Positions 6,040-24,813 of a DNA stretch of 64,000 nucleotides are shown here, in pieces. The position numbers were made by a program, and so were the translations under genes. This DNA comes from Streptomyces sp. NBC_01216 (GTDB lineage Bacteria; Actinomycetota; Actinomycetes; Streptomycetales; Streptomycetaceae), in NCBI RefSeq assembly GCF_035994945.1, contig NZ_CP108677.1:806001-870000 (forward strand), read 5' to 3'. Under the pieces are notes generated by a model. That model worked only from the letters and a program-made list of their open reading frames with translations. It had not been told where the DNA came from and ran no database searches. How positions within the stretch are numbered: the stretch's first letter is position 1; the number at the start of each line of letters is the position of its first letter.

Positions 6040-6455
6040 GGTCCGGCGCAGCCGGCTGGGCAGTCTGAGGAAATGACATCGATCTGAGACAGCCGCTTGC
6101 CGACACGTCGTGAGACTGGAGGGGAACGTCCAGGTCATAGCGTCGGCGCCTGACATCGAAAGTGAGAACCTACACTGGCAGGTCGGCTGCCCCTCTCCCC
6201 CATACCTGAGCGTTCACAGCTGAAGCAACGTTCGCCCAGCGCCCCCGTGCGGGGTCGCTGGGCGCTAGTTGATCAGCTGCTGCTGTTGATCGTGCTCGCG
6301 TCCCAGGTCCGGCGGACCCGAGTCGCCCTCTGCCCCACCGTCGGTCCCTACTCGCGGGTGGACTCGCAAGGCTCCGAAATTCAGGATGATCACTCCCTTC
6401 GCTCCCCTACCCTGCCGACACCGACAACCCCTCTCGACGAGGAGTGAACTCCCCG
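6040..6455. other. Intergenic region
   Basis: This 416-nt stretch has no convincing gene. It contains the hairpin at 6233-6264 and the ribosome site for the methyltransferase. The short open frame at 6247-6447 lacks protein-like features. Confidence 0.5.
6233..6264 (+). terminator. Hairpin, probable terminator
   Basis: CGCCCAGCG (6233-6241) pairs perfectly with CGCTGGGCG (6256-6264), and the inner CCCC/GGGG extends the stem around a short loop. No U-run follows, as is common in Streptomyces. Confidence 0.55.
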
Positions 6456-7277: not shown

Positions 7278-7288
7278 GGTGTCACCTC

Positions 7289-7981
7289 ATGACGCTGCTG
7301 ATCGCGGGTGGGTCCGGGCTCCTGGGTACCGAACTGGTCCGGCGAGCCGTCGCGGCCGGGCACCCGACGGCCGCAACCTACGCGACCAGACCCGGGGGTA
7401 CCCCGGAAGTCGCCTGGCACCACCTCGATCTACGCAACCCCAGTAGCGGCGCAGCGGTCGTGGCCGAACTCAGCCCGCGCGTCATCATCAACGCGTCTAG
7501 TGGAGGTGCGGACTGGGCGGTCACGGCCGAGGGGCCCATCCGCCTCGCCATCGCCGCGGCGAAGGCCGGCAGCAGGATGATCCAGGTCTCCAGCGACGCG
7601 GTGTTCTCCGGCAAGACCCGCGTGCACTACGACGAACACTGCCGACCCGACCCCATCACCCCGTACGGAGCCGCGAAGGCGGCAGCGGAGACGGTGCTCC
7701 TCGTCCATTCGGACGCCGTCGTGGCCCGCACGTCCCTGATCATTGGTGACGGGCAATCCGGACACGAACGAACCGTCCACGAACTCGCCACCGGCACCCG
7801 CGAAGGTGTCCTCTTTACGGACGACTTCCGTTGTCCGGTGCACGTGAGCGATCTGGCCGCAGCCCTCCTGGAACTCGCATGGGGCGACACCACCGGCATC
7901 CATCACCTCGGCGGCAGCCAGGCCATCAGCCGTCACGTTCCCTGTCAAGTTCATCTGTTCGCATTCTGTGGAGTGCTCTGA
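7289..7981 (+). pseudogene. NAD(P)-dependent epimerase/dTDP-4-dehydrorhamnose reductase-like, 3' truncated
   Basis: The product begins with the nucleotide-binding motif MTLLIAGGSGLLGTELVRRA and continues as an RmlD/extended short-chain dehydrogenase: SSDAVFSGKTRVHYDE and the active-site tyrosine in TPYGAAKAAAE (YxxxK). Homology runs to GIHHLGGSQAISRH (about 7935). It then changes to VPCQVHLFAFCGVL and a stop, with no match to the usual C-terminal 50-60 residues. The break coincides with the start of transposon-derived sequence, so the 3' end was probably removed by insertion or deletion. The substrate-binding end is lost and the protein is probably inactive. Confidence 0.75.
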
Positions 7982-8117
7982 GGATCCGAGACGCTGTGAC
8001 TGATTCCCAATCGTCGTTGTCAGTCGTAGGGTTGTGCGGGAGAGCGAGCTCGCGGTCAGGGACGTGCATCTTGGTGGTCCTCAGTGCTGACGCCGAGGGC
8101 GGCTCGGGCCACCGCCA

Positions 8118-9212
8118 GGCGCTCCCTGGACTCGGATATCCACCCTTCACCTGGTGTTCGACTGCCTTCAGTGGCACGACATCGACGTGGAGAACCCGGA
8201 CGGGACGGTGCGCCGCCGGCCCGATGCAAAAGGTCCGCCGGCGGCACAAACTCCCGCTCCATCCCAGCGACGCCCAGGTCATCACCTGCCAGCAGGACCA
8301 CCTGCGGCGCCATTCCCCGCACCTGCTCCATGAAGACGGACGGCCCCGCTCGACCTGCATGGTGCTGTTTCCCACCCCGCGCCGCTCCCGCGCCAACGCG
8401 CTCGGCGAGCGGCCCTACGACAGCAGCACGATCGGTTACTGGCTTCAGACCTGGCTCGACCAGTTCGCAGTGACCGACGAACAAGGCAAGCCCTTCGACC
8501 CGGCACGGGTGCTCCCCTACGCCTTCCGGCACACCTATGCCCAGCTCCGCGCCGACGCCGGCGTCCCGCTCCACATCCTGCAAGTCCTCATGGCCCACCA
8601 GGACCCCTCCACCACCCAGGTCTACTACCGGCCCTCGCACCCCCGGCGGGTGGAAGCGGTGCGCGCCATCGCCGCCAAGTACCAGTTCGACCTCACCGGC
8701 GGCCGGATCCGCGCCCGCATCCCCGACGACGACATGGCCGACCGGATCCGCGCGGGCGTAGGCTCGGTGCCCGTCCCCGCGGGGCGCTGCCACGAGATGA
8801 ACAACGTCCGCGCCGACGGGCACGGCTGCCCGGTGTACAACCGCTGCTTCTCCTGCACCTTCTACACCACCGACTTCACCCACCTGCCCGAGCTGCGCCA
8901 ATTGCGCGCCGGGAAGGCGGAGCAGCTCGCTGCGCTGGAGAGGCCTACGGCGGCGTGCTTACCGCGGGACCGTTGAGCGCGGCGAGCCTGGAGCTGCTGC
9001 GCCAGGAGGTTCAGCAGATCGACGAACGCGTCGGCAAATGCGAAGCCGACATCAGCTCCCTCACTCCCGAGAAAAGGACCACGGTGGAATCCTGGCTCCA
9101 CACCAGAGACTGGTTTCTCACCGTCATCCCCGTGGCGGCGGTTCTGGCCGGGCAGCAGCGTCTAGACCAGCCGACCGTCGACCCGATCGTCACCGAATCG
9201 ACGACGGGATGA
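8118..9212 (+). pseudogene. Tyrosine recombinase (Tn554 TnpB-like), 5' truncated, two frameshifts
   Basis: Three frame segments join into one recombinase. Segment one (about 8151-8215) encodes LVFDCLQWHDIDVENPDGTV. Segment two (from 8224, another frame) encodes QKVRRRHKLPLHPSDAQV on to the catalytic C-terminal domain, with LPYAFRHTYAQ (HxxR type), LMAHQDPSTTQ and the tyrosine in QVYYRPS. After about 8941 the protein continues in a third frame as EAYGGVLTAGPLSAASLELL to TVDPIVTESTTG. The N-terminal half is missing. A cysteine-rich segment (CHEMNN, CPVYNRCFSCTFY) is typical of this transposon-type recombinase. The following DUF6262 gene overlaps its stop by 4 nt, matching the tnpB-tnpC order of Tn554-like elements. 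Confidence 0.8.
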
Positions 9213-9850
9213 CGCGCCCGGCCACCCCGCACAGGCAACCAGGCCGGGTGCCAATCCCCGCCCGTCGGGCCGAAGTCCTCGACGCGGGCAGGGCGGCCGC
9301 CGTTCAACGGCGCCGTGCCGACAGCGAACAATGCCGACAGCGGGTCCTCGCCGTCCTGGCCGCGATGCGCAAGAGCCGCCAGGCCCTCTCCGACGCGGAG
9401 ATCACCCGGCGGGTCGCCGTCAACTCGCAGTACCTTCAACGCCGCCGCGATCTCAAAGTCACAGCCGAGGCCGTCCGCGCCCATCTCGCTCAGGACCCGT
9501 CACGAGCTGCGGCAACTGCAACCGCCCATAAGGAGGCAGCACTCGAAGTCGAAAACCGCATGCTGTTGGAACAGAACGCCGCCCTGCAACGGACCCTTCA
9601 CGAGATCCAGAACGAGCTACGCACGCTACGCGCCAACGACCTAGGTGCCCGCCTCCGCGACGGCATGAACGCCCCCTCGCCGCGGGACTCGGAGATGGAG
9701 GAACTGCGCGCGCAACGAGACGCAGCACTCGCAACCGGCCGTCAAGCAGAGACTGCCATGCAGGCACTCCGTAACGTCAACCAGCGGCTGATGGTCGAGA
9801 ACGGCCGGTTGATCGCCGCGGATACTGCAGAACCCCTGATCAATCAGTAG
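9209..9850 (+). CDS. DUF6262 coiled-coil protein (Tn554 TnpC-like)
   Basis: This protein of about 213 residues starts at ATG 9209, overlapping the recombinase stop (ATGA). The N-terminal part is basic (RRAEVLDAGRAAAVQRRRADSEQCRQRVLAVLAAM), followed by ALSDAEITRRVAVNSQYLQRRRDLK, which resembles a DNA-binding helical domain. The C-terminal half is a long coiled coil (ALEVENRMLLEQNAALQRTLHEIQNELRTLR...). Such proteins accompany paired tyrosine recombinases in Tn554-type transposons and are thought to aid transposition or target choice. The gene looks intact while its partner is broken, so it is probably a relic on the way to decay. Confidence 0.75.
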   Translation: MTRPATPHRQPGRVPIPARRAEVLDAGRAAAVQRRRADSEQCRQRVLAVLAAMRKSRQALSDAEITRRVAVNSQYLQRRRDLKVTAEAVRAHLAQDPSRAAATATAHKEAALEVENRMLLEQNAALQRTLHEIQNELRTLRANDLGARLRDGMNAPSPRDSEMEELRAQRDAALATGRQAETAMQALRNVNQRLMVENGRLIAADTAEPLINQ

Positions 9851-10640
9851 ATGCCTGTCAGGCACGGTTCGCTGCGGGCTACTTACCTCCCACGCGCCTG
9901 TCGCATCTCTCGCACCCAAGGTAGTGCTGACAGCGTGGACGAGGTTCCGGTTCACGGGCATCGAGCACCTGGAGTTTGACCTGTAGCAGCACCCCGACGG
10001 AGGTTCCAGAACGTCGACCCCGCCCACCACCTGCGCGGCACCGTCGTCTACCTGCTGGAACAGCGTCACGCCGACTGCGCCCTGTCGGCCAAGGGTAACC
10101 AGGCGGCCCCGCTCGCCTGGGTCCACGCAGTTCTGCCACCCGCGGTCCCCGAAGCGGAGGAGCACGTCCAAACCGAGCGTTCCCGGTCGGATCATCCGCT
10201 CGTCGGTCTGGACCGCCCCGCTACCTGATCAACTGACTTTGACGCTGCCCTGGGGGCACATGGCCGAATTCCGCGATTCGGCTATTCAGTCGAGACGGCG
10301 GATGGCGAAGTGGAGCGGGCTGCGGGCAGCGGGCTCGGTCGTCTACAAATGCGCCGACTAAATCGATTCTCCGAATGGCCCTTCGATTAGGTGTCCGCTT
10401 TCGGCGGCCCGTAAAATACCTGAATCCCCGCACATGAAAGCGCGTTTGATGGGCGAGAGGTGACCATTTCCAGGTTCCTGGTCGGTGTTTTCCAGACATT
10501 ATGGCCGGATGGCTGTGCCACACGCACGTTCCGTATTGATGTTTCCGTGCCCCACGCCTACTTTATTTTCCGTAACGGCACAGGGGCCCCGCATTTCCGC
10601 GGGCGCCTCACCCAACCGTGTCCACAGGCGGGGGTCACCC
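9851..10640. other. Intergenic region with a possible transposase relic
   Basis: No intact gene is seen in 790 nt. A plus-strand frame at about 10019-10228 encodes HHLRGTVVYLLEQRHADCAL followed by SAKGNQAA, resembling the YLxxxxADYxxTVKGNQ segment of ISAs1/IS4-type transposases. It has no intact start, so it is probably a decayed fragment. The last 200 nt are slightly less GC-rich and presumably hold the promoter of the large operon that begins at 10641. Confidence 0.4.
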
Positions 10641-13600
10641 ATGGCGCTGACGGTCGACGAGCTGGTTGCACTGTTCCCGGCGGGGGGTGCCGGTACGTTC
10701 GAGCTCGACACCGGGCGGCTCGGGCTGACCGGCGAGGCCGAGTCCCTGGAGCACCTGCCCAGCGGCATTCTGACCCTCACTGAGGCGACTGCCGACAGCG
10801 CCGCTCTGACAGTGACCGGCAAGGTCACTTTGGCCGGTGAGGAGATGCCGGCCAGCGCCCGGTTCTTCGCCACCGGCACGGCGGTCGACGCGCTGCTCTT
10901 CGAGGCGAGCCCGGCGACCTGGCTGCTCCAGACCGCCGTCGCCCGCGTCGACCTGTCCGGACTGTCCGGCGGCCGGTCACTGAGGGTCCTGCTGGCCGCC
11001 GGACAGGTCGCGGCCGCGGCCGGACGGTGCCCCGGCACCGGGCCCTGGGTGGGCTTCCAGCTCGGTGGGGCGGTCGCCGACCCGCTGGAGTTCCGCGCCG
11101 AACTGCGCAAGGACTCCATCGGCGCGGCCCAGCCCCTCGACGGACCGCCGCTGCTGATCACCCCGCTGCTCGAGGCCCTCGGCGAGTACGGCGTCGAACT
11201 GCCCGGACCGCTGGTCGACTGGCTGGAGCGGGTCCAGCTGCACCAGCATCCGATGGGCAAGACGGACAACCTGATGGTCACCGCCGAAGCGCCGGTGGAC
11301 CACGGCACCGGCGCGAACCCAGTGGAACTGCTGGTGCTGCGGACCACGGCGCTCGGCCGCACCGGCCAGGACGGCAAACCCAAGGCCACCACCGTCGCCA
11401 TGGTCCGGGTCCGCACGGACTGGGACGGTTCCGGGCTGCCGGTGGTCGGACCCATGATCGGCAACGGACTGCTGTCCCTGCCCGCGCTCCAGGTCATGTA
11501 TGTCTCCGAGAATCTCGGCGCCGAAGACGTCATCAAGATCAACCGGGTCGTCACGGAGTACGACCTCGGCCCGCTCCAGCAGTTGCCGGTGGTGAACGCG
11601 GCGGCAGGGGTTCCGCTGGGCAAGAACGTGAGTGCGGCGGTCTACCTCGCGGTCATGGGCAATCCGACGCCGGCGCTGGTGATCACCGTCCCGCCGAAGT
11701 TCGGCCCGGATCCGCAGAGCCCGGAGAAGCCGAAGCTCGAATACGAGTTCGTGATCGGCAAGCAGTTCGGGCCGGTCTACCTCTCGTCGATCGTATTCCG
11801 CTACGACCGCAAAAAGGGCTTGCTGATCGAGCTCCAGGGCCAGGTCACGATCGGTTCTCTCACCTGGCAGGTCGCCGGACTCGGCTTCTACGTCGGCATG
11901 AGCGGCGGCTTCCCGCTGCTGCCCTTCCTGCACGGCATGAACATCGAAGCCACCGCCGCCGACGGGCTCATCGGCTTCAAGGGCGGACTGCTCAACAAGA
12001 CACCCGACGACCCCGCCCTCGACTTCGAACTCGCCGGGCTGATCCTCGTCCAGGCGATGGCGGTCGAACTCGGCGCCCAGGCGGTGTGGGCACGCAGCGT
12101 CGAAGGCTGGCACTCGGTCTTCATCTACGGCGAGATCTCCCTCCTCGGCGGCGCCTCCGTCTTCGGCCCGCCGCCCTTCACCGTCACCGGCTTCTCCGCC
12201 GGATTCGGGATCAACAGCTCCTTCAAGAAGGTCCCCACCGGCGCCGAGATCGCCGAATTCCCTCTGGTGGCACGGCTGGACGCGGCCCAGGCCCTGCCCG
12301 GCATGCCGGCCCCGACGCCTTACACCCCCGAAGACGCGCTCAAGGCCCTCACCGGACCCACCGGCTGGATCCGCCCCGCCGAGGGCCAGTACTGGATCGC
12401 CGCCGGAGTGAAGTTCACCAGCTTCGGCTTCATCGAGACCAAAGCCCTCGCCGTCATCGAATTCGGCGACTCCGTCAAGGCCATGCTGCTCGGCCGCACC
12501 TCCGTCAGCCTGCCGCGCACCCTCGACCCGAAGGCCCGGGCCATCGCCAGGGTGAACATCGGTCTGAGCCTCGGCTTCAGCTCCGCCGAGCACTGCCTGT
12601 CCATGGACGTGGCTCTGCTGCCCGGCAGCTATGTGCTCGATCCGTCCATCGAGCTCACCGGTGGCATCGCCGTCTACGTCTGGACCGGCGGCGGCCGCGC
12701 CGGGGACTTCGCCATCAGCCTCGGCGGCTACCACCCCGACTACAACGTCCCCGCCCACTACCCCCGGCCCAAGCGCCTCGGGTTCGTGTGGTCGCCGGCC
12801 AGCGACATCACCGTGCGGGCCGAAGCCTACGCCGCGATCACCCCCGCCGCGTTCATGTTCGGCGGGCGCCTGGCCGCCGTCTACGACAAGGGCATCTTCT
12901 CCGCGTGGTTCACCGCACACCTCGACGTGCTGGTCCAGTGGAAACCCTTCTACCTCGATGTCCGGCTCGGCATCAGCATCGGTGTCGCGGCCACCATCAA
13001 GGTGTGGTTCGTCCGGGTCCGCATCTCCGTCGAGGTCGGCATCGACCTCCACCTGTGGCTGCCGCCCTTCGGGGGCCGGGCCACCGTCAAACTCTGGTTC
13101 ATCTCCTTCAGCTTCGGCTTCGGCTCCTCCCGCGACAACACTCCCACCGTGGACTGGCCCGAATTCCGCACTCAGATCCCCGCACCCGCCCGGGTCATCC
13201 CCAACGAGGGCCTGCTCGCCGACGCCGACCAAGGCGAGATCGCCCGGCGTGCGGCCGCCAAGGAACCGACCCTCGTCTCCTCGGCCGGATTCACCTTCAC
13301 CACCGAATCCGGCATCCCCGCCTCGCACCTGTACATCAACGAACGGCTGATCAAGCAGTCCGACGAGGGGACCATCGACATCCGCCCCATGCGGAAGACC
13401 GGTGTCACCTCCGCCCACCGGGTCACCATCACCAAGGACGGCACGACCTTCCACCCCACCGACCACCACTGGGTGGTCAAGCCGGTCACCGGCACGGTCG
13501 CCCCCGGCCTGTGGGGCAAGCCCCTGGCCAAACCCGGTGATGCGCTCGACGGCGACCAACTGCTCGAAAACCGCCTCACCGGACTGAGGATCACCCTCCC

Positions 13601-13919
13601 CGAGCCGGACTACGGCACCGACACCGGGCCCGTCACCTCAAAGGCGCTTTCGTACGACGGACTCCCTGACGGTCGCATGCCCCTGCGCGTGTCCGACCCC
13701 GCCGGGCCCGAGCCGCGGGCCGACCGCCAGAGCGTCCGGACCATCGTCGACACCGTCGCCGCCGACACCGTCAAGGACCGCCGCACCGCCGTGCTCAGCA
13801 CCCTCGCCCGGCTCGGCGCGGGACCCGGCGCCGACACCGACAGCCCGCTCACCGGCTACGCCGCACTCGCCGGCCGCAGCCTGACCACCCCGCCCCTGAC
13901 CACCACCGCGACGAGGTGA
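10641..13919 (+). CDS. DUF6603-type large protein, first gene of a four-gene operon
   Basis: This protein of 1092 residues starts at ATG 10641 (MALTVDELVALFPAGGAGTF); the frame is open upstream but without protein-like sequence. Its central 600 residues match my knowledge of DUF6603. They are dense in alternating beta-strands with Gly and aromatic residues: WQVAGLGFYVGMSGGFPLLP, GWIRPAEGQYWIAAGVKFTS, FAISLGGYHPDYNVPAHYP, FSAWFTAHLDVLVQWKPFYL. The pattern suggests an extended beta-sheet or barrel-like fold. No signal peptide, catalytic motif or nucleotide site is visible. The gene is 6 nt upstream of the next one, and the whole operon lies between transposon remnants. The DUF has no established function. 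A surface, structural or carrier role is only an inference. Confidence 0.7.
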   Translation: MALTVDELVALFPAGGAGTFELDTGRLGLTGEAESLEHLPSGILTLTEATADSAALTVTGKVTLAGEEMPASARFFATGTAVDALLFEASPATWLLQTAVARVDLSGLSGGRSLRVLLAAGQVAAAAGRCPGTGPWVGFQLGGAVADPLEFRAELRKDSIGAAQPLDGPPLLITPLLEALGEYGVELPGPLVDWLERVQLHQHPMGKTDNLMVTAEAPVDHGTGANPVELLVLRTTALGRTGQDGKPKATTVAMVRVRTDWDGSGLPVVGPMIGNGLLSLPALQVMYVSENLGAEDVIKINRVVTEYDLGPLQQLPVVNAAAGVPLGKNVSAAVYLAVMGNPTPALVITVPPKFGPDPQSPEKPKLEYEFVIGKQFGPVYLSSIVFRYDRKKGLLIELQGQVTIGSLTWQVAGLGFYVGMSGGFPLLPFLHGMNIEATAADGLIGFKGGLLNKTPDDPALDFELAGLILVQAMAVELGAQAVWARSVEGWHSVFIYGEISLLGGASVFGPPPFTVTGFSAGFGINSSFKKVPTGAEIAEFPLVARLDAAQALPGMPAPTPYTPEDALKALTGPTGWIRPAEGQYWIAAGVKFTSFGFIETKALAVIEFGDSVKAMLLGRTSVSLPRTLDPKARAIARVNIGLSLGFSSAEHCLSMDVALLPGSYVLDPSIELTGGIAVYVWTGGGRAGDFAISLGGYHPDYNVPAHYPRPKRLGFVWSPASDITVRAEAYAAITPAAFMFGGRLAAVYDKGIFSAWFTAHLDVLVQWKPFYLDVRLGISIGVAATIKVWFVRVRISVEVGIDLHLWLPPFGGRATVKLWFISFSFGFGSSRDNTPTVDWPEFRTQIPAPARVIPNEGLLADADQGEIARRAAAKEPTLVSSAGFTFTTESGIPASHLYINERLIKQSDEGTIDIRPMRKTGVTSAHRVTITKDGTTFHPTDHHWVVKPVTGTVAPGLWGKPLAKPGDALDGDQLLENRLTGLRITLPEPDYGTDTGPVTSKALSYDGLPDGRMPLRVSDPAGPEPRADRQSVRTIVDTVAADTVKDRRTAVLSTLARLGAGPGADTDSPLTGYAALAGRSLTTPPLTTTATR

Positions 13920-13925
13920 CCGGCC

Positions 13926-16157
13926 GTGCCCGCTGAACCGGATCTGCGCATCCACTTCCTCGACCACCTGATCCCGCGTGCCACCCCCGGCGACTACCGG
14001 GTCGTGGTCAAGAACACCCTCAGCGACCCCGGCGGCGAACTGGACGCCCAGGACAAGCTGCTCCCGTCCGAGGAGACCTTCGAGATCAAGGCCGTCCGCT
14101 TCGTGCTCAGCGAAGCGTCCGTCCACGCCCACTACCCGCCGCGCGAGAGCACCGGCGCCTACACCAGGACCCTGCCGCACATCACCCTCAGCCGGTCGAT
14201 CCTGCCCTGGGAACGCAACCTCGCCGGAACCCGCGCCGAGCAGCCCCCGGCCCGCCCGCCCTGGCTCGCCCTGCTCGTCTTCGGCGAGAACGAACTGCCC
14301 GACGACCCCGCCGCGTCCGGGGACACCGTGCTGCGCACCGTCGAGGAGCTCCGCAACCCTGCCGAGGCGGGGGTCAAGGGCCCGAACCTGCCGTCCGGCG
14401 GCGTCGACGAGGCCGAGGCCCGGAGCAAGTGCCGGACCATCGACGTCCCGGCAGACCTCTTCAACGCGATCGCCCCACGCGACGACGAGATGTACTACCT
14501 CGCCCACGTCCGCAAGGTCGTCGACGCGAACAAGCCCCGGGCGGCCGACGGCGAAGTCTTCGTAGAAGGGGAGTACGCGGTCGTCAACGCCAACCGCTTC
14601 CCTCACAACCCCGGTAACTACGCCGTCCACCTCGTCTCCCTCGAAGGCTTCGAGGGCCGCTTGTCCGGCACCCTGCCCGGCACCACCACGGCCGTTCGCC
14701 TGTGCTCGCTGCACAGCTGGAGCTTCACCAGCAGCGAAGGGCCCGCCGCCGACCCCGGAGCGCTGCTGGAGAACCTCGTCGCCCACGGCGCCGAGGACCC
14801 CGAAGAGCTCGCCCTGCGTCTGCCGGTGACGGCACCGGTCACCGACGATCCCGAGGACGACTACGTCCGCGACCGCCTTGCCCGCGGCTACACCGCCGTC
14901 CCGCAGCCGACCCTCTCCGGCGAACGCACCTTCGCCTGGTACCGCGGCCCGGCCACCCCTGTCACCGCTTTCGCCGTGCCCACCGAGCACAGCCCCGGCC
15001 CGCACACCACCTCCGACCACGCGCTCATCTACGAGCCCGAGCACGGGATCTTCGACGTCAGCTATGCCGTCGCCTGGACTCTCGGTCGCACCATCGGCCT
15101 GGCCGACCCCGAATACACCACCGCCGTCGGCCGGGCCCGCCGCGAACTCGCCAACCGGGCGACGACGCTGATGGCGCTGGCCGGAGATCCGGAGCGCGCC
15201 TCGGTCGACCCGGATGCCCCGCCCGCCCTCGGCGCGCTGCGCGAACTCGCCTCCGCCGGCTTCCGCGAGCGGCTCAGCACCGGCCTCACGAGCACCCAGC
15301 TCCCGGACGACGCCGGACGCAGGATGCCGCAGCCGAGAGTGACACGTACACAGTCAAGGTCCGTGCTCGCAGAAGAACGCGCCGTCTCCCTGCTGCGGAC
15401 CACCGCGGAACGCAACGCCGAGGCCATCGCCGCCTGGCAGGCCCGCCTCGGCCTGCTCCAGGGCGTGCCGTTCCACCACCTCGTGCCCGATCCGCGGATG
15501 TTGCCCCTGGAATCCCTCCGGATGTTCCGCCTCGACCAGGGCTGGCTGGACGCGCTCGTCGCCGGAGCCGCCGACGTCGGCGTGCACACCTCCGTCGACA
15601 GCCGCCTCGCCCCCGAACTCAACCGGGCCACCGCCCGGTCGGGCAGCACGAAGCGAGCCGCCGGCGGGCTGCTCATCCACTCCGAACTCATCCCCGCCTG
15701 GCCGGACATCAAGGTCAACGCCTACCTCAGGGACGGCACCGTCCTCACCGAGCTGCGCCGCGCCAAACCGGACGAGAGGATCCTGCTCGTCCTCTGGGAC
15801 GGCGTACCCGACAAGGTCGTCATCCGCGAACCGGGACAGGGCATCCACTACGGCATCGACTCCGGGAACCGCCTCGGCCTGCGCAGCCTGGCCGCCGACC
15901 CGCCGATCGGCACCCCGCTGGAGACCTTCTACCCCGCCACCGGCAGCCTCTTCGACCTCCACCTGCGCTCCGACCCGGACACCGGACCCGCGGTGCTCCA
16001 GATGTTCGGCACCGGCGGCCTGGTGCCCGCCCTGGCCCGGGAGTTCGGGCTCACCGACCTGGACCCCGGACAACTGGCCCTGGAACTCGTCAACGCCCCG
16101 CTGGAACAGGAAATCCTCAGCCCCACCGGCACCGCTGCCCGGACGGAGACCGCCTGA
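13926..16157 (+). CDS. Unrecognised large protein (743 aa), operon gene 2
   Basis: The GTG start at 13926 follows a GAGGTG site. The soluble 743-residue product begins MPAEPDLRIHFLDHLIPRAT, with no signal peptide or membrane helix. The N-terminal 350 residues are beta-rich (VHAHYPPRESTGAYTRTLPHI, PPWLALLVFGENELPDD, YAVVNANRFPH), with a look of domains found in structural or virion-like proteins. The C-terminal half contains FHHLVPDPRMLPLESLRMFR and LDQGWLDALVAGAADVGVHT, a motif type that I associate with large uncharacterised bacterial proteins. No catalytic signature is seen. It overlaps the next gene by one base (TGATG), implying translational coupling and fixed stoichiometry. Its function is unknown. 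Confidence 0.75.
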   Translation: MPAEPDLRIHFLDHLIPRATPGDYRVVVKNTLSDPGGELDAQDKLLPSEETFEIKAVRFVLSEASVHAHYPPRESTGAYTRTLPHITLSRSILPWERNLAGTRAEQPPARPPWLALLVFGENELPDDPAASGDTVLRTVEELRNPAEAGVKGPNLPSGGVDEAEARSKCRTIDVPADLFNAIAPRDDEMYYLAHVRKVVDANKPRAADGEVFVEGEYAVVNANRFPHNPGNYAVHLVSLEGFEGRLSGTLPGTTTAVRLCSLHSWSFTSSEGPAADPGALLENLVAHGAEDPEELALRLPVTAPVTDDPEDDYVRDRLARGYTAVPQPTLSGERTFAWYRGPATPVTAFAVPTEHSPGPHTTSDHALIYEPEHGIFDVSYAVAWTLGRTIGLADPEYTTAVGRARRELANRATTLMALAGDPERASVDPDAPPALGALRELASAGFRERLSTGLTSTQLPDDAGRRMPQPRVTRTQSRSVLAEERAVSLLRTTAERNAEAIAAWQARLGLLQGVPFHHLVPDPRMLPLESLRMFRLDQGWLDALVAGAADVGVHTSVDSRLAPELNRATARSGSTKRAAGGLLIHSELIPAWPDIKVNAYLRDGTVLTELRRAKPDERILLVLWDGVPDKVVIREPGQGIHYGIDSGNRLGLRSLAADPPIGTPLETFYPATGSLFDLHLRSDPDTGPAVLQMFGTGGLVPALAREFGLTDLDPGQLALELVNAPLEQEILSPTGTAARTETA

Positions 16158-19100
16158 TGAGCGCCACGGACCTGATCGTCCCCGTCAAGGTGAACGCCCT
16201 TGTCGTCAACCGGCTGACCCGCACCGCCGAGACGTTCAACCGGTGGACACCGAACTTCGACGCCATGATCGAGGAGGGCACGGGCGCGGAACCGCCCCCC
16301 GGCGTCGGCACCGAGACCATGGGCCCGGACAGCGAAGGTGTCTACGTCCAGTGGCAGCTGCCCGAAGCGCTGGCCAACGGGCACTACGACCAGACGACGG
16401 GGGAGACGACCTTCCCCTTCGTCCCCAACCGCTGGCTGGTCGTGCGCTACAGCACCACAGCGGCGGCGGCGGACCGCAAGGCCGTCGGCTGGATCGTGCA
16501 GAGCGACTACCTGGAGAGCCGCCCGGTCCAGGACGCCGACGGCAACGACATCTACGGCACCAACAAGCACCCGAACCCCGATTCACCGGCGGGCGCTCCG
16601 CTGGAGCTGACCTTCCTCGGCCGCCGCCACGACCTCGCCCAGGCGCCGTGGACCGAACCACCCGCCCAGAAACCGCACCTGACCGCGGCCGGGCCCGGAC
16701 TGCCCGGCTTCGCGGCCTACCAGCCGTACAACAAAGACGTGTTCTCCCTCCACGACACCCTTGAGGACCTCAAAGGCGACCTGGACAACTACCCGCCCGA
16801 CGCGACGCTGAGCTACTTCGTCGTCGGCTGGTACAGCGACGACGCCCTCGACTACCTCAACCGCGCCGCGTCCGTGCCCGGCCTGCTCCCGCCGGACGCG
16901 GACGGGACGGCCGATCTCCTCGAAGCCCTCGGCTGGGCCACCCCCGAAGGCACCGCCGCCGATGCCCTGGACCGCACCCTCTACAGCGGCTCGGCGCTGG
17001 GAGTCGACTGGCAGCGCGAAGGCGCCACCCATGAGTCCGACAAACCGAGCAACATCGAGCTCAGCAAGATCCTGACACTGGGCAGCAGCAGCGCCGAAGC
17101 CCTCGGCCGGCTGGCCGCCCGCCAGACCCGGTCCGCGCGCACCGGGGACCTCGTACGCTCGCTCTTCCACGGCACCCTCGAAACACTCGACACCGCCGAC
17201 GGCGAAGAGGACCTCGACACCCTCACCCATCACTCCTGGTTCTCCGGCTCCGACGGCGGCTACGTGTGGAAGGTGACGGCGCGCCCCGTCGAAGGCGACG
17301 ACGAGCTGCCGCCCCCGCCGCCGGAACCCGGATGGCTGACCGAACTCAACGATGTCCAACGGCAGTACGACGACCTCACGCCCAGGCTCCGCCGCTCGCA
17401 GCAGCGCCTGTGGAACATCTGGTGGCTGCGCAACAAGCCGGTTCCCCCGTTCACCCCTGAGCACCCCGCCGGGTTCGACGCCGCAGCTGATGTCCAGCTC
17501 AACGAGAGCGATGCGACGAGTCTGGCCGGGCGGACCAAGGCTCTGCTCGACGAACAGTTCGTGCTGTCGAGGCAACTGCCCACCGGCGGCACCCCGGAGG
17601 AACTCGCGGCCGACATCGGGAAGTACGCGACCGAACGCGGACTCGACCCGCGCTACCAGCTGGAGCGCACCGCCCGCGAGTCCTACTACCGCCCCGCCGA
17701 CCCGGTCGTGCTCATCAAGGACACCGGCGCCAAGGAACCCCTCACCCGGGACACCCCGCTGCCCTGCCGCCTTCCCGAGGCCCTGATCACCCGGATCACC
17801 GTCGGCGGCACGACCTACGACCGGCCCACGACTCCGCCCAGCCCGGGACTGGCCGGACTCCCCGACGCCTGCACCCCGCTCCTCGCGGAGTTCGCCCTCC
17901 TGGACCAGGTGGCCCGGGTCCCCGGCGCTCTCGACGCGGCGCTGAAGGACCCTGCCGCCGTCGCCGGGCCCGTCCCCGAGCACACCGCGCCGTGGCGGCA
18001 GCCCTGGCTGCCCATGCACCTCGAATACGAACTGAAGTACTGCCCCACGCCCTTCCAGGCCGGCGACACCACCTACTGGACCTTCAACGGCAGCCGCTAC
18101 GAATGGTCCGGCCGGGGAGCCCAGCCCGGCGGCGGCGAAGCCGACCTGCGCTGGCTCACCTTCAAGAACCGGGCGTTCCTCACCCCGAGCGTGCCGTGGG
18201 TCCTGCAGAAGCAGATCGACCGCTACCTCGACACCTACTCCGGCGCTCCCACCGACGGCCTGCTCGCCCTGCGCGAGGAACTCGGCCACCCCGGAATGCT
18301 CTCCCAGCGCCTCGACGGCTTCCACGACTGGCTCGTCCAGCAGGACTCCACCGCCAGGACCACCGTGCACGTCCCCGAGGCCGTCGCCCGGCTCGTCGGC
18401 GACATCCAGAGCGTCCCGGAAGGCGGCCCGCTCGAACCGCCCGCCGACGACCCCGGAACACCGTTCCAGCCGGTCCGTGCCGGCCAGTTCACCTTTCACG
18501 ACCTGCGCATCGTCGACCGCTTCGGCCGCACCTACGACATCGTCAACAGCGGCAACTACGAACAGGTCTCCCTCACCCTCGCGGAGAGCGTTGCCCCTGA
18601 TGAGGTCCTGCACGAGGACCTCATCGGCACGGCCCGCTTCGTCCAGCTCGGCCCGCGTCTCCTCCAGGGCGCCCGCGTGCGGCTGGAGACCGTACGTGCC
18701 GTGGACGGACAGCGGCTCTCACCGATGGCTCGCGCGGCCACGACGGAAAACCCCCTGGCCGGCTGGTTGCTGCTCAACCATCTCGACCAGACCCTCGTCG
18801 TCCACGGACCCGACGGCGTCTGTCTCGGCGAACTCCGCGTCGTCAAGGACATCGACGGCGCGGACGACAGCGTGTGGCTACCGCTCCCCGGCTCGCCCCA
18901 TCCCGACGTCGACGCCCAGGAGTTCGAGGACGCCATGCCGCACCTGGCCCGGTTCGTCCGCACCCTGAAGGACAAACCCGCCGCCGCGCTGACCGGCCTG
19001 CTCGACACCATCGACCAGACCCTCGACACCATCCTCGACGACGCGGCCCAGGAGGACGGCTCTCCGCTGCGGCTCATCGGCCGTCCGCTCGCGCTGGTGC

Positions 19101-19798
19101 GCGCCGATCTGGGCGTCGAGCTCGAAGGACCGCTGCTGAGCAATCCGAGCTGGGACCAGGTGCTCGGGGAGTCGGAGGAGGAGTACGACGGATATCGCTG
19201 GCCGGTCCGGCTCGGCAACGAGAAGCGGCTCGGCGACGGCCTCATCGGATACTTCGCCGGGGCGACCGGACCCGACCAGGAGACCTCGTACGAGCTCTTC
19301 CACGCGGTCATGCCGAAGGGCGGCGGGGGCTACCTGACCCCGATCGACAAAGGCCACGGCCTGGCCGTGCCCGCGCGCACCCCGGACCAGCCGGTGACGC
19401 ACCACCTGACGCTGCTGATGGATCCGTACGCGGCGGTGCACGCCACCACGGACATCCTTCCGGTGACCAAGGTCCAGCTGCCCGACGACCTGGTGTCCGA
19501 GGCGATGCGGCGGATCCGGGCGTCCTTCCGGCTCGGCCCACTGCTCGCGGCCGAGCGGGTCGACAAGGCCGAGGAAGTCAGGCGGGCACGGGCGGGAGAG
19601 GAGCCGACGGAGGCAGGTGTGGTGCTGCCGCAGCCCGCGTCGTGGCACGGAGCGTGGAGCTGGGCCGAGCCGCGCGGGTCGGAGACCGAGTGGGTGGAGC
19701 TGCCGATCGTTCCGGCTGACACCGCGGCGCACTTCGGGGATCCGCAGGCGGAGGCCCGCTATGGATACCTGCTGCTCGACGCGACCGAGAAGTCCTGA
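16157..19798 (+). CDS. Unrecognised very large protein (1213 aa), operon gene 3
   Basis: Translation starts at the ATG that shares a base with the previous stop. The 1213-residue product (MSATDLIVPVKVNALVVNRL...) has no signal peptide. Near residues 45-130 are FNRWTPNFDAMIEEG, GVYVQWQLPEAL and FPFVPNRWLVVRYSTTA, a beta-rich segment. The middle contains an amphipathic helical region (LNDVQRQYDDLTPRLRRSQQ) that could form a coiled coil or stalk. The C-terminal third has FTFHDLRIVDRFGRTYDIVN and WGWLLLNHLDQTL-like strands, ending in RYGYLLLDATEKS. The composition suggests a structural or scaffold protein, not an enzyme. I recognise no domain. It is translationally coupled to gene 2 and followed 26 nt later by the tail-fibre-like gene. 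Confidence 0.75.
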   Translation: MSATDLIVPVKVNALVVNRLTRTAETFNRWTPNFDAMIEEGTGAEPPPGVGTETMGPDSEGVYVQWQLPEALANGHYDQTTGETTFPFVPNRWLVVRYSTTAAAADRKAVGWIVQSDYLESRPVQDADGNDIYGTNKHPNPDSPAGAPLELTFLGRRHDLAQAPWTEPPAQKPHLTAAGPGLPGFAAYQPYNKDVFSLHDTLEDLKGDLDNYPPDATLSYFVVGWYSDDALDYLNRAASVPGLLPPDADGTADLLEALGWATPEGTAADALDRTLYSGSALGVDWQREGATHESDKPSNIELSKILTLGSSSAEALGRLAARQTRSARTGDLVRSLFHGTLETLDTADGEEDLDTLTHHSWFSGSDGGYVWKVTARPVEGDDELPPPPPEPGWLTELNDVQRQYDDLTPRLRRSQQRLWNIWWLRNKPVPPFTPEHPAGFDAAADVQLNESDATSLAGRTKALLDEQFVLSRQLPTGGTPEELAADIGKYATERGLDPRYQLERTARESYYRPADPVVLIKDTGAKEPLTRDTPLPCRLPEALITRITVGGTTYDRPTTPPSPGLAGLPDACTPLLAEFALLDQVARVPGALDAALKDPAAVAGPVPEHTAPWRQPWLPMHLEYELKYCPTPFQAGDTTYWTFNGSRYEWSGRGAQPGGGEADLRWLTFKNRAFLTPSVPWVLQKQIDRYLDTYSGAPTDGLLALREELGHPGMLSQRLDGFHDWLVQQDSTARTTVHVPEAVARLVGDIQSVPEGGPLEPPADDPGTPFQPVRAGQFTFHDLRIVDRFGRTYDIVNSGNYEQVSLTLAESVAPDEVLHEDLIGTARFVQLGPRLLQGARVRLETVRAVDGQRLSPMARAATTENPLAGWLLLNHLDQTLVVHGPDGVCLGELRVVKDIDGADDSVWLPLPGSPHPDVDAQEFEDAMPHLARFVRTLKDKPAAALTGLLDTIDQTLDTILDDAAQEDGSPLRLIGRPLALVRADLGVELEGPLLSNPSWDQVLGESEEEYDGYRWPVRLGNEKRLGDGLIGYFAGATGPDQETSYELFHAVMPKGGGGYLTPIDKGHGLAVPARTPDQPVTHHLTLLMDPYAAVHATTDILPVTKVQLPDDLVSEAMRRIRASFRLGPLLAAERVDKAEEVRRARAGEEPTEAGVVLPQPASWHGAWSWAEPRGSETEWVELPIVPADTAAHFGDPQAEARYGYLLLDATEKS

Positions 19799-19824
19799 AC
19801 CTCCGTTAACAGAAGGGCTGTTGC

Positions 19825-21333
19825 ATGAGCGTTGTCATGGTGAACGCCACCAACCTGCTGCCGTACGAACCGTCGACCGACCCGACGCCGTTGCGGGTGA
19901 GCTCCGCCGAGGAAAACGAGTACGGCTCCGTCAACATCAATGTCGGCGGCGGGATCACCACGTCGGCCTGGTGCAACAAGATCACCGTCCGGGTGCCGGT
20001 CGGCGCGGGGGCCGAGCACCTCACCACCGAGGGCGCCGACATCAAGACCGGTGCCAGCACCGGCTGGACGCCGTCCGCCCCCGCCGTCTCCGGCGGCTTC
20101 GCGGTCATCACCTTCACCCCGGCCCGCGCGGTGCAGTTCACCGGGCAGATCGTCACCCTCACCCTGTCCAACATCGCGGTCAACCGCACGGCGGGTCAGG
20201 TCTCCATCGCGATCGTCGAGAGTTCGTCAAGGACGAACGGGAGCTTCACCAACAAGGACGCCGAGGTCATGGTGGACAAGTTCCCCGCCGGGTTCGTGTT
20301 CCGGAATTTCGCGCCCGAGAAGATCATGGTGGAGAACGGTGAGGTCGCCGTGCTCCGCTGGGAGGGCTCGGACGCGAAGTACACGATGCACTGGGGCGAC
20401 ACCCCCGCCGGAGTCTCCCTCGACAAGGAACGTGTCTGGCCCACCCCGCGCGGTCTGACCACCGTCACCGGCTTCATGCTCCGCGCCGAAGTCACCGCCG
20501 GCGGCGTCACCCTCACCCACACCCTGACCACGGCGGTCACCGTACGCATTCCTGACCTCGTCGTCAGGAACCTCACCGTCCAGGGCCCGGCCACATTCGC
20601 CGACAGCGTCAGTCTCAGCAACACCGCCAAGGACCTGACAGTCGCCGGATCGGTGCGCGGCGCGGGCAGCAACCCGCTGCGGGTCAGCCAGAACGCGGGC
20701 CTGAAGGTCGACGCGGCCCTGAACGTCACCGGGGCGAGTACGTTCGCCAACAGCGTCAGCCTCACCAACGCCGCCAAGGACCTGACGGTCGCCGGATCGG
20801 TGCGCGGCGCGGGCAGCAACCCGCTGCGGGTCAGCCAGCCCGCGGGCCTGAAGGTCGACGCGGTCCTGAACGTCACCGGGGCGAGCACCTTCAACAACAG
20901 CATCACGACCATCGGCGACGTCACCGTCGGGGGCACGCTCACCGCCAACGGCAACCTCAACGCCGTCGGGACAGGGACCGTCCGAATCGCCGACCTCCGC
21001 GGCCCGTACGGCGAACCGCTCAAAATCAACAGCCACGTCAACGTCTTGCCCGGCAACAACGTCACCATCACTGACAATCTCACCGTCGGCGGCAAGCGGG
21101 CTATCCGCGCCGGTGACCGCATCAAGCTGGAGGTCAACAGCCACAACAAGGAGCTTTATCTCTACTGTGAGACCGGTAACAGGGACAACGTCTACGGGGG
21201 CAGTAGGAACTACTCCAACGCCACCTGGCGAGTTCATTACTACGACTCCCGCAGCAGCGTGAACGATGCTTCGGACGGCCAAGGAACCATCGCTGAACCC
21301 GACGGAGGCGACATCCGCTCGGCGGATGACTGA
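19825..21333 (+). CDS. Tail-fibre-like repeat protein (502 aa), operon gene 4
   Basis: The ATG at 19825 follows an AAGG site. Residues 1-150 are a beta-rich domain (SVNINVGGGITTSAWCNKIT, VQFTGQIVTLTLSNIAVN). Residues 160-245 resemble an Ig-like fold (FRNFAPEKIMVENGEVAVLR, YTMHWGDTPAG). From about residue 250 there are two near-identical 49-residue repeats (FADSVSLSNTAKDLTVAGSV...LNVTGAST), then a partial third and TLTANGNLNAVGTGTV units. These LTV/LNVTG repeats are typical of beta-solenoid phage tail fibres and adhesins. The C-terminal 80 residues (KLEVNSHNKELYLYCETGNR, YSNATWRVHYYDSR) could be a binding tip. No signal peptide is visible, so export would need a phage-like or other route, or cell lysis. 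Confidence 0.75.
   Translation: MSVVMVNATNLLPYEPSTDPTPLRVSSAEENEYGSVNINVGGGITTSAWCNKITVRVPVGAGAEHLTTEGADIKTGASTGWTPSAPAVSGGFAVITFTPARAVQFTGQIVTLTLSNIAVNRTAGQVSIAIVESSSRTNGSFTNKDAEVMVDKFPAGFVFRNFAPEKIMVENGEVAVLRWEGSDAKYTMHWGDTPAGVSLDKERVWPTPRGLTTVTGFMLRAEVTAGGVTLTHTLTTAVTVRIPDLVVRNLTVQGPATFADSVSLSNTAKDLTVAGSVRGAGSNPLRVSQNAGLKVDAALNVTGASTFANSVSLTNAAKDLTVAGSVRGAGSNPLRVSQPAGLKVDAVLNVTGASTFNNSITTIGDVTVGGTLTANGNLNAVGTGTVRIADLRGPYGEPLKINSHVNVLPGNNVTITDNLTVGGKRAIRAGDRIKLEVNSHNKELYLYCETGNRDNVYGGSRNYSNATWRVHYYDSRSSVNDASDGQGTIAEPDGGDIRSADD
20596..20889 (+). repeat. Two tandem 147-bp in-frame repeats
   Basis: Copy one (20596-20742) and copy two (20743-20889) differ at only a few positions and each encodes 49 residues beginning FA[DN]SVSL. 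A third, diverged unit starts with FNNSI at 20890. The high DNA identity indicates recent duplication or gene conversion. Confidence 0.9.
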
Positions 21334-21368: not shown

Positions 21369-21806
21369 AGGTCAGGTTCCGCGCCAGTTGGGGGTGGCTT
21401 CGCCGGTGAGGCGGCGGGCCATGAGGTCGATCATCGCGAAGTGGACCATGGCTTCGAACCGGTGCGGGTGGGTTTCGTAGTCGCGGGCGAGTCGGCGGTG
21501 GTGCATGAGCCACCCGATGCTCCTCTCGATCGTCCAGCGTCTGGGAATGACCGTGAACCCCTTGACGCGCCCCGGGGCGTTAGACGGGGTGGACGTGGAT
21601 GCCCAGGCGGGCGCCGTGGTCGATGGCGGTGGTGCGGTAGCTGCCGTCCACCCAGACCTTGGTGACGCGCGGGTGGGCGGCGGCGATGCGGGTGAGTAAG
21701 GTGACACCGGCCGCGGTGTCGGAGGCGCTGGCGGCGGTGACCAGGACTCCACCGCTGGCCGCACCCTCCTGGAGCAGGCCGCCGCCGACCACCCCAGCCT
21801 TCGCAA
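21369..21806 (-). pseudogene. IS5-family transposase relic
   Basis: On the minus strand one frame encodes GVVGGGLLQEGAASGGVLVT to HPRVTKVWVDGSYRTTAIDH, the DDE core. Near 21580 it stops, and another frame continues with KGFTVIPRRWTIERSIGWLM and HHRRLARDYETHPHRFEAMV, the characteristic IS5 C-terminus. The start is missing and a frameshift separates the halves, so it is inactive. It lies 36 nt past the end of the large operon and marks that edge of the cargo. Confidence 0.75.
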
Positions 21807-22045: not shown

Positions 22046-23139
22046 TCAGATGTTGGTTGTGACCTGGGGTTTCGTGGTTGCTCGGTAGTGGTTGTTCTCG
22101 TATTCGACGGGCGGGACGTGGCCTATCTCACCGTGGAGTCGTCGGTGGTTGTACCAGTCGACGTACTCGGCGGTGGCGAGCTCGACGTCGGACAGCGTCT
22201 TCCATGGCCGTCGGGGCTTGATCAGCTCGGTCTTGAACAGGCCGATCGTGCTCTCCATCAAAGCGTTGTCATAGGCGTCGCCGACCGAGCCGATCGAGGC
22301 GGCGATGCCGGCTGCGTCCAGGTGCTCGGCGAGCCGGAAACTCGTGTACTGCGACCCGGCGTCCGAGTGATGGATCAACTCGCCTGGCTGAACGGGGTGT
22401 TGGTCGCGGTCGCGCTGCCAGATCGCCATCTCCAGGGCGTCCAGCACGAAGACCGTCTCCTTCACGGTGGCCGCGGACCAGCCGACGATCCGGCGGGAGA
22501 AGGTGTCCACGACGAAGGCGACGTAGACGACGCCGGCCCAGGTCTTCACGTGGGTGAAGTCCGCGACCCAGCAGCGGTTCGGGGCGCCGGCGATGAAGTC
22601 CCGGTCCACAAGGTCGGGGGCCCGGTCGGCCTGGCCGCCGGGAAGCGTGGTGATCACACGTCTGCCGCGGACCGCTCCTGCGATGCCGAGTTCCCGCATC
22701 AGGCGCTCGACGGTGCAGCGGGCCACCGTGACGCCCTGCCGGTTCAGCTCCCGCCAGATCTTCCTCGCCCCGTAGACGCGGTAGTTGGTGTCGTAGACGT
22801 GCTGGATCAGCTCTTTCAGCTCGCTGTCCCGCACGGTCCTGGCGGACGGTGCGGCCTGGCGTTGGTGGTGGGCGTAGTAGGTGGAGGGGGCGATCTTGCA
22901 GTCGTGCATCGTCAGCACGCGGCAGATCGGCTCGACACCGCCGAAGCGGCCCTTGTGCTCGTCGATGAACGCTACGAGCGTGTGTGTGGCCGGTCGAGCT
23001 CGGCCGCGAAGAAAGACGCCGCGGCTTTCAGGATCTCGTTCGCCCGCTTGAGCTCGGCGTTCTCCTTCTTCAGTCGCTTCAGCTCGGCCGATTCCTCGGT
23101 GGTCACGCCAGGACGCACTCCGGCGTCGACCTGGTCCTG
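22046..23139 (-). pseudogene. IS3-family transposase OrfA-OrfB, OrfA truncated by IS1380
   Basis: The minus strand carries the end of OrfA (VRQDQVDAGVRPGVTTEESA, ELKRLKKENAELKRANEILK, stop at 22972). Overlapping it in the -1 frame is OrfB, an rve-type integrase: HTLVAFIDEHKGRFGGVEPI, YRVYGARKIWRELNRQGV, NRCWVADFTHVKTWAGVVYV (first Asp), LIHHSDAGSQYTS (second Asp) and DNALMESTIGLFKTELI (Glu). The DDE triad is intact. OrfA lacks its N-terminal helix-turn-helix because IS1380 sequence starts at 23140. The missing part is not on the other side of IS1380. OrfAB in IS3 elements is normally made by -1 frameshifting; here the product cannot be complete. Confidence 0.85.
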
Positions 23140-24813
23140 CCTCACCCCGGATCCACCGGTTGATGTGCGGCGGTGACGTTGCCGGGAACGAGGAAGTGCC
23201 CTGTGACCTGCGATGATGGGAGTTCTCACGCTTCCAGCACGCACGACCAACAGGGCACTTCTGAGATGCAATCTTCCCATGCCGCGGCGAAGGTCTCCGC
23301 ACGGTTCGATGATCCGAATCTGATCGCGTACGGCGGGCTCGCGCCGCTGGTGCGCCTGGCCGAGCGGTGCGGCCTGCCCGGCCTGGTCGGCGAGATGATG
23401 CGGCTGCCGGCCTCGAAGAACGGCACCGGTTCCTTCCCGGCCGCCAAGTCGATGGCGCTCATCGCGGGCATGGCCGCGGGCGCGGACAGTATCGACGACA
23501 TGGACCGGCTGCGGCACGGCGCGATGCGGCGCCTGTTCACCGGGGTCCGCGCCCCGTCGACCCTCGGCAGCTTCCTGCGGTCCTTCACCCACGGGCACGT
23601 GAAGCAACTGCACGCCGTCGCCCGCCGGTTCCTGCCTCGCCTGGCCGCGCACACCCCGCTGCTGCCCGGCGCCGACACGGTCGCCTACCTCGATCTGGAC
23701 GACACCATCAAGCCGGTCCACGGCTATGCCAAACAGGGCACCGGTTACGGATACAACAAGGTCAAGGGCCTGAACGCGCTGATCGCGACGCTGTCCACGC
23801 CGCTGGCCGCCCCGGTGATCGCCGCAACCAGGCTGCGCAAGGGCAGCGTGAACTCGGTGCGCGGAGCCGGTTCGTTCGCCGCCGAGGCGGTCCGCACCGC
23901 CCGCGCGTCCGGTGCGACCGGGATGCTGACCGTGCGGGCGGATGCGGCCTACTACGCCGCCGAGGTGATCGCCGCCTGCCGCGCGCTCGGCGCCCGCTTC
24001 TCCGTCACGGTGCGGATGAACGCCTCCGTCAAGCAGGCCATCGCCGCTATCGACGAGACGGCCTGGACGCCGATCAAGTACCCCAAGGCGGTGTGGGACA
24101 GCGAGGAGGAACGCTGGATATCGGACGCCGAGATCGCCGAGATCGAGTACACCGCCTTCACCTCGAAACCGAAGAAGCAGCAGGTCACCGCCCGTCTCAT
24201 CGTGCGACGCGTCAAGCGCCTGAACCCCGCGACCGTGCCCGGGGGCCAGGGCGAGCTGTTCACCGCCTGGCGCTACCACGCCGCGTTCACCGACAGCACG
24301 CTGCCGCTCATCGACGCCGAGCGTGACCACCGGCGCCACGCGATCGTGGAACAGGTGATCTCCGAGCTGAAGAACGGCCCGTTCGCACACGCCCCCTCGG
24401 GCAGCTTCCAGGCGAACGCCGCCTGGCTCGCGCTGGCCGCCCTCGCCTTCAACCTGACCCGCGCCTGCGGAACGCTCGCCGGCACCTTTCACGCCCGCGC
24501 GACGTGCGCGACCATCCGTGATCACCTGGTCAACGTGCCCGCCCGTCTGGCCCGTTCGGCCCGCCGGCTCACCCTGCACCTGCCCGAACGCTGGCCCTGG
24601 CACGACGCCTTCGAAGCCCTCTTCAACACCTTGCACACCCCGCCCCAACCGACCTGACCTGCCCGTATCTGACCCGCCCGCCAGGGCCCGAGAGCTGTGG
24701 ACATGTGGAAAAGCTGGGCAGACCAGCGGCCACCCCATGCCCGCCGCCAGACGCATCGCCTCGATCACCGAAAACGATCACTCACGAAACGAGCCGGTGG
24801 ATCCGGGTTCAGG
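23140..24813 (+). mobile_element. IS1380-family insertion sequence, 1674 bp
   Basis: Twenty-base inverted repeats with two mismatches bound the element: CCTCACCCCGGATCCACCGG at 23140-23159 and the complement of CCTGAACCCGGATCCACCGG at 24794-24813. Their CCT start and the length fit the IS1380 family. One intact transposase gene lies inside. The flanks (CCTG on the left, GTTG on the right) show no target duplication. The left flank is IS3 orfA and the right flank is an unrelated gene, so the element joins two sequences that were not neighbours. Confidence 0.88.
23266..24657 (+). CDS. IS1380-family DDE transposase
   Basis: The ATG at 23266 begins a 463-residue transposase (MQSSHAAAKVSARFDDPNLI). 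Catalytic blocks are YLDLDDTIKPVHGYAKQG (first Asp), LTVRADAAYYAAEVI (second Asp) and RRHAIVEQVISELKNGPF (Glu). An inserted beta-rich region lies between the second Asp and the Glu, as usual for IS1380. The length is normal and no disruption is seen, so the element may still be mobile. An upstream in-frame ATG at 23173 lies within the terminal-repeat region and is less likely. Confidence 0.9.
   Translation: MQSSHAAAKVSARFDDPNLIAYGGLAPLVRLAERCGLPGLVGEMMRLPASKNGTGSFPAAKSMALIAGMAAGADSIDDMDRLRHGAMRRLFTGVRAPSTLGSFLRSFTHGHVKQLHAVARRFLPRLAAHTPLLPGADTVAYLDLDDTIKPVHGYAKQGTGYGYNKVKGLNALIATLSTPLAAPVIAATRLRKGSVNSVRGAGSFAAEAVRTARASGATGMLTVRADAAYYAAEVIAACRALGARFSVTVRMNASVKQAIAAIDETAWTPIKYPKAVWDSEEERWISDAEIAEIEYTAFTSKPKKQQVTARLIVRRVKRLNPATVPGGQGELFTAWRYHAAFTDSTLPLIDAERDHRRHAIVEQVISELKNGPFAHAPSGSFQANAAWLALAALAFNLTRACGTLAGTFHARATCATIRDHLVNVPARLARSARRLTLHLPERWPWHDAFEALFNTLHTPPQPT

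Follow-up and report, generated by a model that had tools for sequence, protein, structure and literature searches.

What might be built by four adjacent genes of Streptomyces sp. NBC_01216 whose products are very large and for the most part carry no family name? The genes lie in a stretch of 64,000 nucleotides (contig 1, 806001-870000), referred to here as the window, of a 7.72-Mb genome that has one DUF6603 gene. All four are on the forward strand. The first, g1 (10641-13919), is an open reading frame (ORF) for a DUF6603 protein of 1092 aa, also supported by the family PF20248 and an AlphaFold2 (AF2) model. It is followed by g2 (13926-16157), whose 743-aa product is modelled by AF2 as beta-rich with central helices, by g3 (16157-19798), an ORF of 1213 aa with relatives but no known family, and by g4 (19825-21333), an ORF whose 502-aa product appears fibre-like from sequence comparison. 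An earlier note on this DNA had described four same-strand genes of these lengths, spaced by 6, -1 and 26 nt, and had proposed that their products form an assembled structure. Coordinates, lengths and spacings proved exact, and the interpretation is now partly supported. Our analysis shows that the four genes are a real and widespread cassette, which encodes unnamed large proteins and keeps its order in distant bacteria. The GC content at the third (GC3, 0.90-0.91) and second (GC2, 0.49-0.51) codon positions of g1-g4 is typical for real genes, and g1-g3 are under purifying selection, with dN/dS values of 0.15-0.37 against four relatives (L004-L007).

The conservation of the cassette carries this finding. 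Co-occurrence of the genes in order elsewhere had been set beforehand as a test, and it extends far beyond the genus. Named bacterial genomes were scanned with a g2 alignment, and the best 80 of 151 confirmed stretches were kept, giving 79 loci; as these were found through g2, the frequency of solitary g1, g3 or g4 cannot be read from them. Two of the loci, L066 and L067, are identical in coordinates and content and lie at opposite ends of one chromosome. By blastp, g1, g2 and g3 stand in this order on one strand in 75 of the 79 loci. Profiles, which added L037, placed g1 in 76 of them, and the three without g1 (L024, L025 and L026) contain g2 only in part. A gene with a g4-type anchor follows g3 in 68 of the 70 loci having g3 and at least 2.5 kb beyond it, as one copy in 38 loci, two in 27 and three in 3, with a median gap of 27 nt. 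It is missing from L055 and L078, and the protein at this place in L078 clustered with the g4 group.

The hosts of the 79 loci are mostly actinomycetes. Loci outside this group include those of two cyanobacteria (L071, L077), a Marinomonas (L078), and metagenome-assembled genomes, possibly mis-binned, of an Acidovorax (L058) and a member of the Chloroflexota (L069). A Paenibacillus plasmid (L097) also has the g1-g2-g3 set, with no g4 match there. The closest relatives of the window's locus are from Streptomyces, among the matches listed by relative searches that scored the candidates sharing most words (best 120 of 340 for g2, best 120 of 185 for g3).

Among 197 genomes of the order, 25 have g2, the window's own genome counted. 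The other 24 have g3 in all cases and DUF6603 in 23, and in 20 of them g1-g2-g3 are ordered on one strand. The exceptions are two genomes with g3 upstream of g1 (G325, G474), one with the set split over contigs (G316) and one with remnants only (G337). Three cassette sets each are present in G342 and G400, and several copies in the order have decayed through stops or splits. With its presence in 25 of 197 genomes, the triple sets and the decayed copies, the cassette is sporadically distributed, multiplied in some genomes and lost from others. Decay in progress is visible in L008, L010 and the genomes G391, G382 and G477, where g1 or g2 is split or contains stops.

DUF6603 alone is broader, being found in 9 of 296 genomes of the phylum. 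The stretches around DUF6603 were fetched for the eight genomes other than our own, and g2 and g3 adjoin it in three (L089, L091, L096). A second type of DUF6603 cluster was found in L092, L095, L098 (13489-26082) and L099 (13036-25081), in which DUF6603 is followed by a remote g2 relative and then by a larger partner. It resembles the cassette in having DUF6603 plus the remote g2 relative, which was recognised by hmmsearch --max with E values of 6e-9 in L098 and 3e-5 in L099, and by hhalign with an E of 6e-4 at a probability of only 28%. It differs, however, in the larger partner (1420-1936 aa, split in L098, and also present as the Y-type partner in L094), which is unrelated to g3 by hhalign (E 0.65). 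This second cluster reaches a Rhizobium plasmid.

What the individual proteins look like was approached through profiles, models and sequence comparison. Sensitive profile searches bore out the DUF6603 assignment of g1, and placed g2, g3 and g4 in no family at or near the curated cut-offs of Pfam, NCBIfam and PHROGs, the best rows being at chance level (E 0.065-0.22). Residues 372-889 of g1 (11754-13307) match PF20248 with 444 bits, against a curated cut-off of 27, and g1 is thus a member of this family. The AF2 model of g1 has a mean predicted local distance difference test score (pLDDT) of 76.0 and a predicted template modelling score (pTM) of 0.56. In it the DUF6603 region forms a long, strongly amphipathic antiparallel beta-meander. 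The strand alternation of this region is 3.10, compared with a mean of 1.45 (standard deviation 0.20) in 2000 shuffles, none of which reached 3.10. The model loosely resembles outer-membrane barrels and ApoB, with a root-mean-square deviation of 9-17 Å over 210-330 residues among the matches listed. In some relatives the N-terminal region of g1 (residues 1-365, 10641-11735) is a separate protein: its profile recognises 11 of the 12 such proteins grouped in cluster 6 (E 2e-5 to 3e-29).

The AF2 model of g2 is confident (mean pLDDT 86.7, pTM 0.77) and has a central pair of long helices, which may correspond to the stalk-like helical region noticed earlier. Neither the g1 model, compared with solved structures, nor the g2 model, compared with the PDB, gave a convincing enzyme match. 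Matches of other kinds to g2 were not convincing either, whether in the PDB or among the viral models of BFVD. For g3, sequence searches returned no solved relative. Some relatives of g2 and g3 carry additional domains, namely a CBM96-type domain (PF24517) in several g2 relatives among the matches listed, and discoidin domains in seven of 23 aligned g3 members, from which the window's g3 differs in having none.

The layout of g4 is of the tail-fibre type, with a conserved N-terminal anchor and an exchangeable C-terminal tip. The anchor comprises residues 1-250 (19825-20574). It is followed by a shaft with a tandem duplication of 147 bp (20592-20905; 2.1 copies, 91% matches), and by the interchangeable tip (residues 415-490, 21067-21294). 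Exchange of the parts is evident in both directions: the relative P0276 shares 75% identity with g4 over 53 aa of the tip and only 22% in the anchor, whereas P0258 and P0264 have anchors 94% identical to that of g4 and lack its tip. For g4, dN/dS is 0.67 against L006 and 0.61 against L007, compared with 0.26 for L004, where the tip is shared. Because of the conserved anchor, the swapped tips and the duplication in the shaft, g4 has, as judged from its sequence, the architecture of an attachment fibre. The tail-fibre-like character given to it by the earlier note holds for this layout, but not for a relation to phage proteins: against PHROGs, matches were at chance level only, to three families, each by one of 13 members (best E 0.0056).

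The genes next to g1 vary among relatives. Since genes were called as ORFs, some flanking genes are possibly misjudged. In 12 of the 76 loci with g1, an ORF on the same strand has its end no more than 60 nt upstream of g1. These ORFs belong to a metallo-beta-lactamase (MBL) cluster in L011, L033, L053 and L076 (a Lactamase_B Pfam match in L053, no Pfam match in L033), are hemopexin-type in L018 and L022 (Pfam on L018), M91-like in L019, L021 and L058 and a subtilase in L055, and have no family in L072 and L078; for L011, L021, L022 and L076 the class was assigned by clustering only. The MBL-fold gene of L053 (4458-5627) matches the PADLOC models LmuA (E 2e-10) and RTasMBL (E 5e-7).

The M91-like family has 12 members, from a cluster of 11 loci and from L058. 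Eleven of the 12 are encoded no more than 79 nt from a gene with the g1 N-terminal domain, either a full g1 or a free N-domain (the exception is L055), and with the duplicated L066/L067 taken once the count is 10 of 11. Free N-domain genes occur in ten loci, and in all ten g1 is without that domain, compared with a base rate of short g1 of 29 in 76; as the neighbour loci are related, none of these counts represents independent events. Because M91-like genes adjoin the N-domain, and the free N-domain pairs with a short g1, these data suggest that the enzyme partners with the g1 N-domain. The M91-like protein of L040 has a near full-length relative in two of 197 genomes, in each of them a few kb away from the cassette. 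The copy in G341 matches the query exactly, so that this genome is its source or nearly so, and G400 is left as the one independent case. Four other matches in this sample cover only the C-terminal part of the protein.

Does the cassette belong to a known system? The earlier note had seen no match to a phage tail or contractile injection system, and this was upheld. No relative of g2 was found by tblastn, run for g2 only, in 50,697 phage records. The contractile sheath PF04984 (Phage_sheath_1), the only sheath family sought, had no match in the whole genome; as a control, the same search was positive in three of 14 genomes. Tube, baseplate and AAA+ ATPase genes are expected parts of contractile injection systems, including extracellular ones (eCIS), and families of these kinds were absent from g1-g4 at E<=1 in Pfam, NCBIfam and PHROG searches. 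The Pfam domains of the Tc (ABC) toxin complex were likewise absent from g1-g4 at E<=1, and PADLOC protein models gave no family for g1-g4 at E<=0.01. With eCIS the cassette would share the concept of a particle that is encoded by several genes, bears fibres and is accompanied by varying enzyme genes, but its genome is without the sheath and the four genes without tube, baseplate or ATPase family. Similarly, g4 shares the anchor-shaft-tip layout of phage tail fibres, yet is not related in sequence to any PHROG family. The long amphipathic antiparallel beta-meander of g1 recalls porins, ushers, LptD, SprA and ApoB100; however, the superposition on outer-membrane barrels and ApoB100 is weak, g1 has no signal peptide, and the hosts are mostly Gram-positive. 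In g1-g4, a simple Kyte-Doolittle 19-residue scan, used without a dedicated predictor, gave no transmembrane segment, no signal-peptide-like one, in agreement with the earlier note, and no hydrophobic N-terminal segment that could serve as the export signal of an outer-membrane barrel. PF20248 itself has no described function, the family name is uninformative on the operon, and a literature search gave no paper in which either DUF6603 or PF20248 is mentioned. Since there was no phage, PHROG, sheath or PADLOC match and no paper, we assign the cassette to no known system, apart from the Pfam domain of g1; it may work like a fibre-bearing complex.

The explanation that we tentatively prefer, at somewhat less than an even chance, is that g1-g4 form one multi-part complex that binds a target, includes a membrane-active sheet protein and does not derive from phage-tail parts. 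In such a complex g4 would be the attachment fibre, with its conserved anchor, repeat shaft and exchangeable tip, and g2 and g3 would form the body or hub that carries it, with sugar-binding domains added in some relatives. After contact, the amphipathic beta-sheet of DUF6603 could bind or insert into a membrane or lipid layer, while the g1 N-domain could serve to dock an enzyme passenger in those lineages that have one. Because no export signal was seen in g1-g4, the complex would leave the cell by lysis or an unknown route. We infer physical assembly, release, membrane insertion, docking, target and activity alike. The kept gene order, the swapping of tips, the faster change of g4, the strand alternation of DUF6603, the glycan-binding-type domains and the M91-like neighbours support a complex of this kind. 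Several observations weigh against it. No g2 or g3 was found beside DUF6603 in L090 and L092-L095 when profiles of both were applied at E 1e-5, and no secretion gene or signal peptide was recognised. The barrel superposition of g1 is weak, with Foldseek TM values of at most 0.16 by query length, on a model with a mean pLDDT of just 76. Most loci, including the window, have no enzyme gene next to g1. Moreover, the Pfam scores for M91 are weak (28.9 bits in L040 at a cut-off of 25, 19.9 in L019, 18.2 in L058), and the HExxH motif is present in nine of the 12 M91-like members, being absent in L016, while L066/L067 are cut by the contig.

A bolder form of this proposal, which we consider rather unlikely, is a new particle for delivery or attack that has no phage-tail ancestry, with g4 as fibre and g2/g3 as hub, in which the DUF6603 sheet would double as the translocation path, the g1 N-domain would dock interchangeable enzymes, and the whole would have spread horizontally over several phyla. 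The same parts might instead form a static apparatus of the surface or matrix, in the form of an adhesive layer or an appendage, which ties the cell to sugars or other cells without any delivery. The discoidin and CBM96 domains of relatives, the fibre-like g4 and the missing enzyme gene in most loci would suit such a structure, but the four proteins have neither signal peptide nor anchor segment, adhesion alone leaves the amphipathic DUF6603 sheet unexplained, and a minority of loci do have enzyme neighbours, so that we regard it as unlikely. The amphipathic sheet could also form an ApoB-like belt around lipid in an intracellular lipid-handling or storage complex, with g2-g4 coating or binding it. 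This is quite improbable, as the swapped, fast-changing tips of g4, the sugar-binding domains and the sporadic spread in the order better suit an outside partner. A conflict or self-killing system, which acts within the stressed colony of the producer and kills through the membrane sheet, would fit a cassette that is sporadic, horizontally spread and present in several copies in some genomes, as well as its decayed copies and mobile-element neighbours, and the MBL neighbour in L053 resembles defence models. Yet g1-g4 have no PADLOC match, no regulator or immunity gene was recognised, and tip swapping hints at outside targets, which makes this explanation improbable too. Descent from a phage tail or contractile injection system is very improbable: nothing but the fibre-like g4 speaks for it, whereas g2 has neither phage relatives nor a viral fold, PHROG families are lacking, and the genome is without the sheath family.

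Genes of mobile elements flank the cassette. Downstream, Pfam identified an IS3-type rve gene (22046-23302, minus strand), a DDE_Tnp_1_4 transposase (23173-24657, plus strand) and, below cut-offs, a DDE fragment (21372-21806, minus strand). Upstream, the tail of a tyrosine recombinase within 7831-8976 scored 25.9 bits in Pfam at a cut-off of 27.1, and is 35% identical over 217 aa to a recombinase of L099. The mobile-element flanks of the earlier note are thus mostly confirmed, and the name Tn554 in part only, because the ORFs 8955-9212 and 9038-9850 had no match in a Pfam search. In L099, a three-gene recombinase block with a DUF6262 protein (6200-10354) lies directly upstream of the DUF6603 cluster. 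The degenerate recombinase tail of the window has the same relative position as this block, an arrangement that is not general among the loci.

Other neighbourhoods of the cassette differ from that of the window. A divergently oriented, conserved protein of 235-267 aa is encoded upstream of g1 in L032, L043, L045, L049, L060, L064 and L070; it has no Pfam family (L049 tested), and its CxxC-type start looks, by eye, like a zinc ribbon. The cyanobacteria L071 and L077 have a common opposite-strand gene group upstream of g1, with a paired membrane-type protein and, in L071, a class 3 lipase. On the Paenibacillus plasmid L097 (748-7515), genes annotated as baseplate-V, DUF4280, pentapeptide and GH-E nuclease lie about 7-14 kb upstream of the cassette, and on a Streptomyces plasmid (L100, 4029-9085) CATRA-type caspase/TPR and CHAT-domain annotations lie about 5-10 kb upstream.

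The cassette thus comprises four genes for very large proteins, in an order that is kept across distant bacteria; the proteins are currently labelled hypothetical, and we found no description of them as a system in the literature searched. Should they form a particle for delivery or attachment, its type would be independent of phage tails, and DUF6603 would gain its first role.

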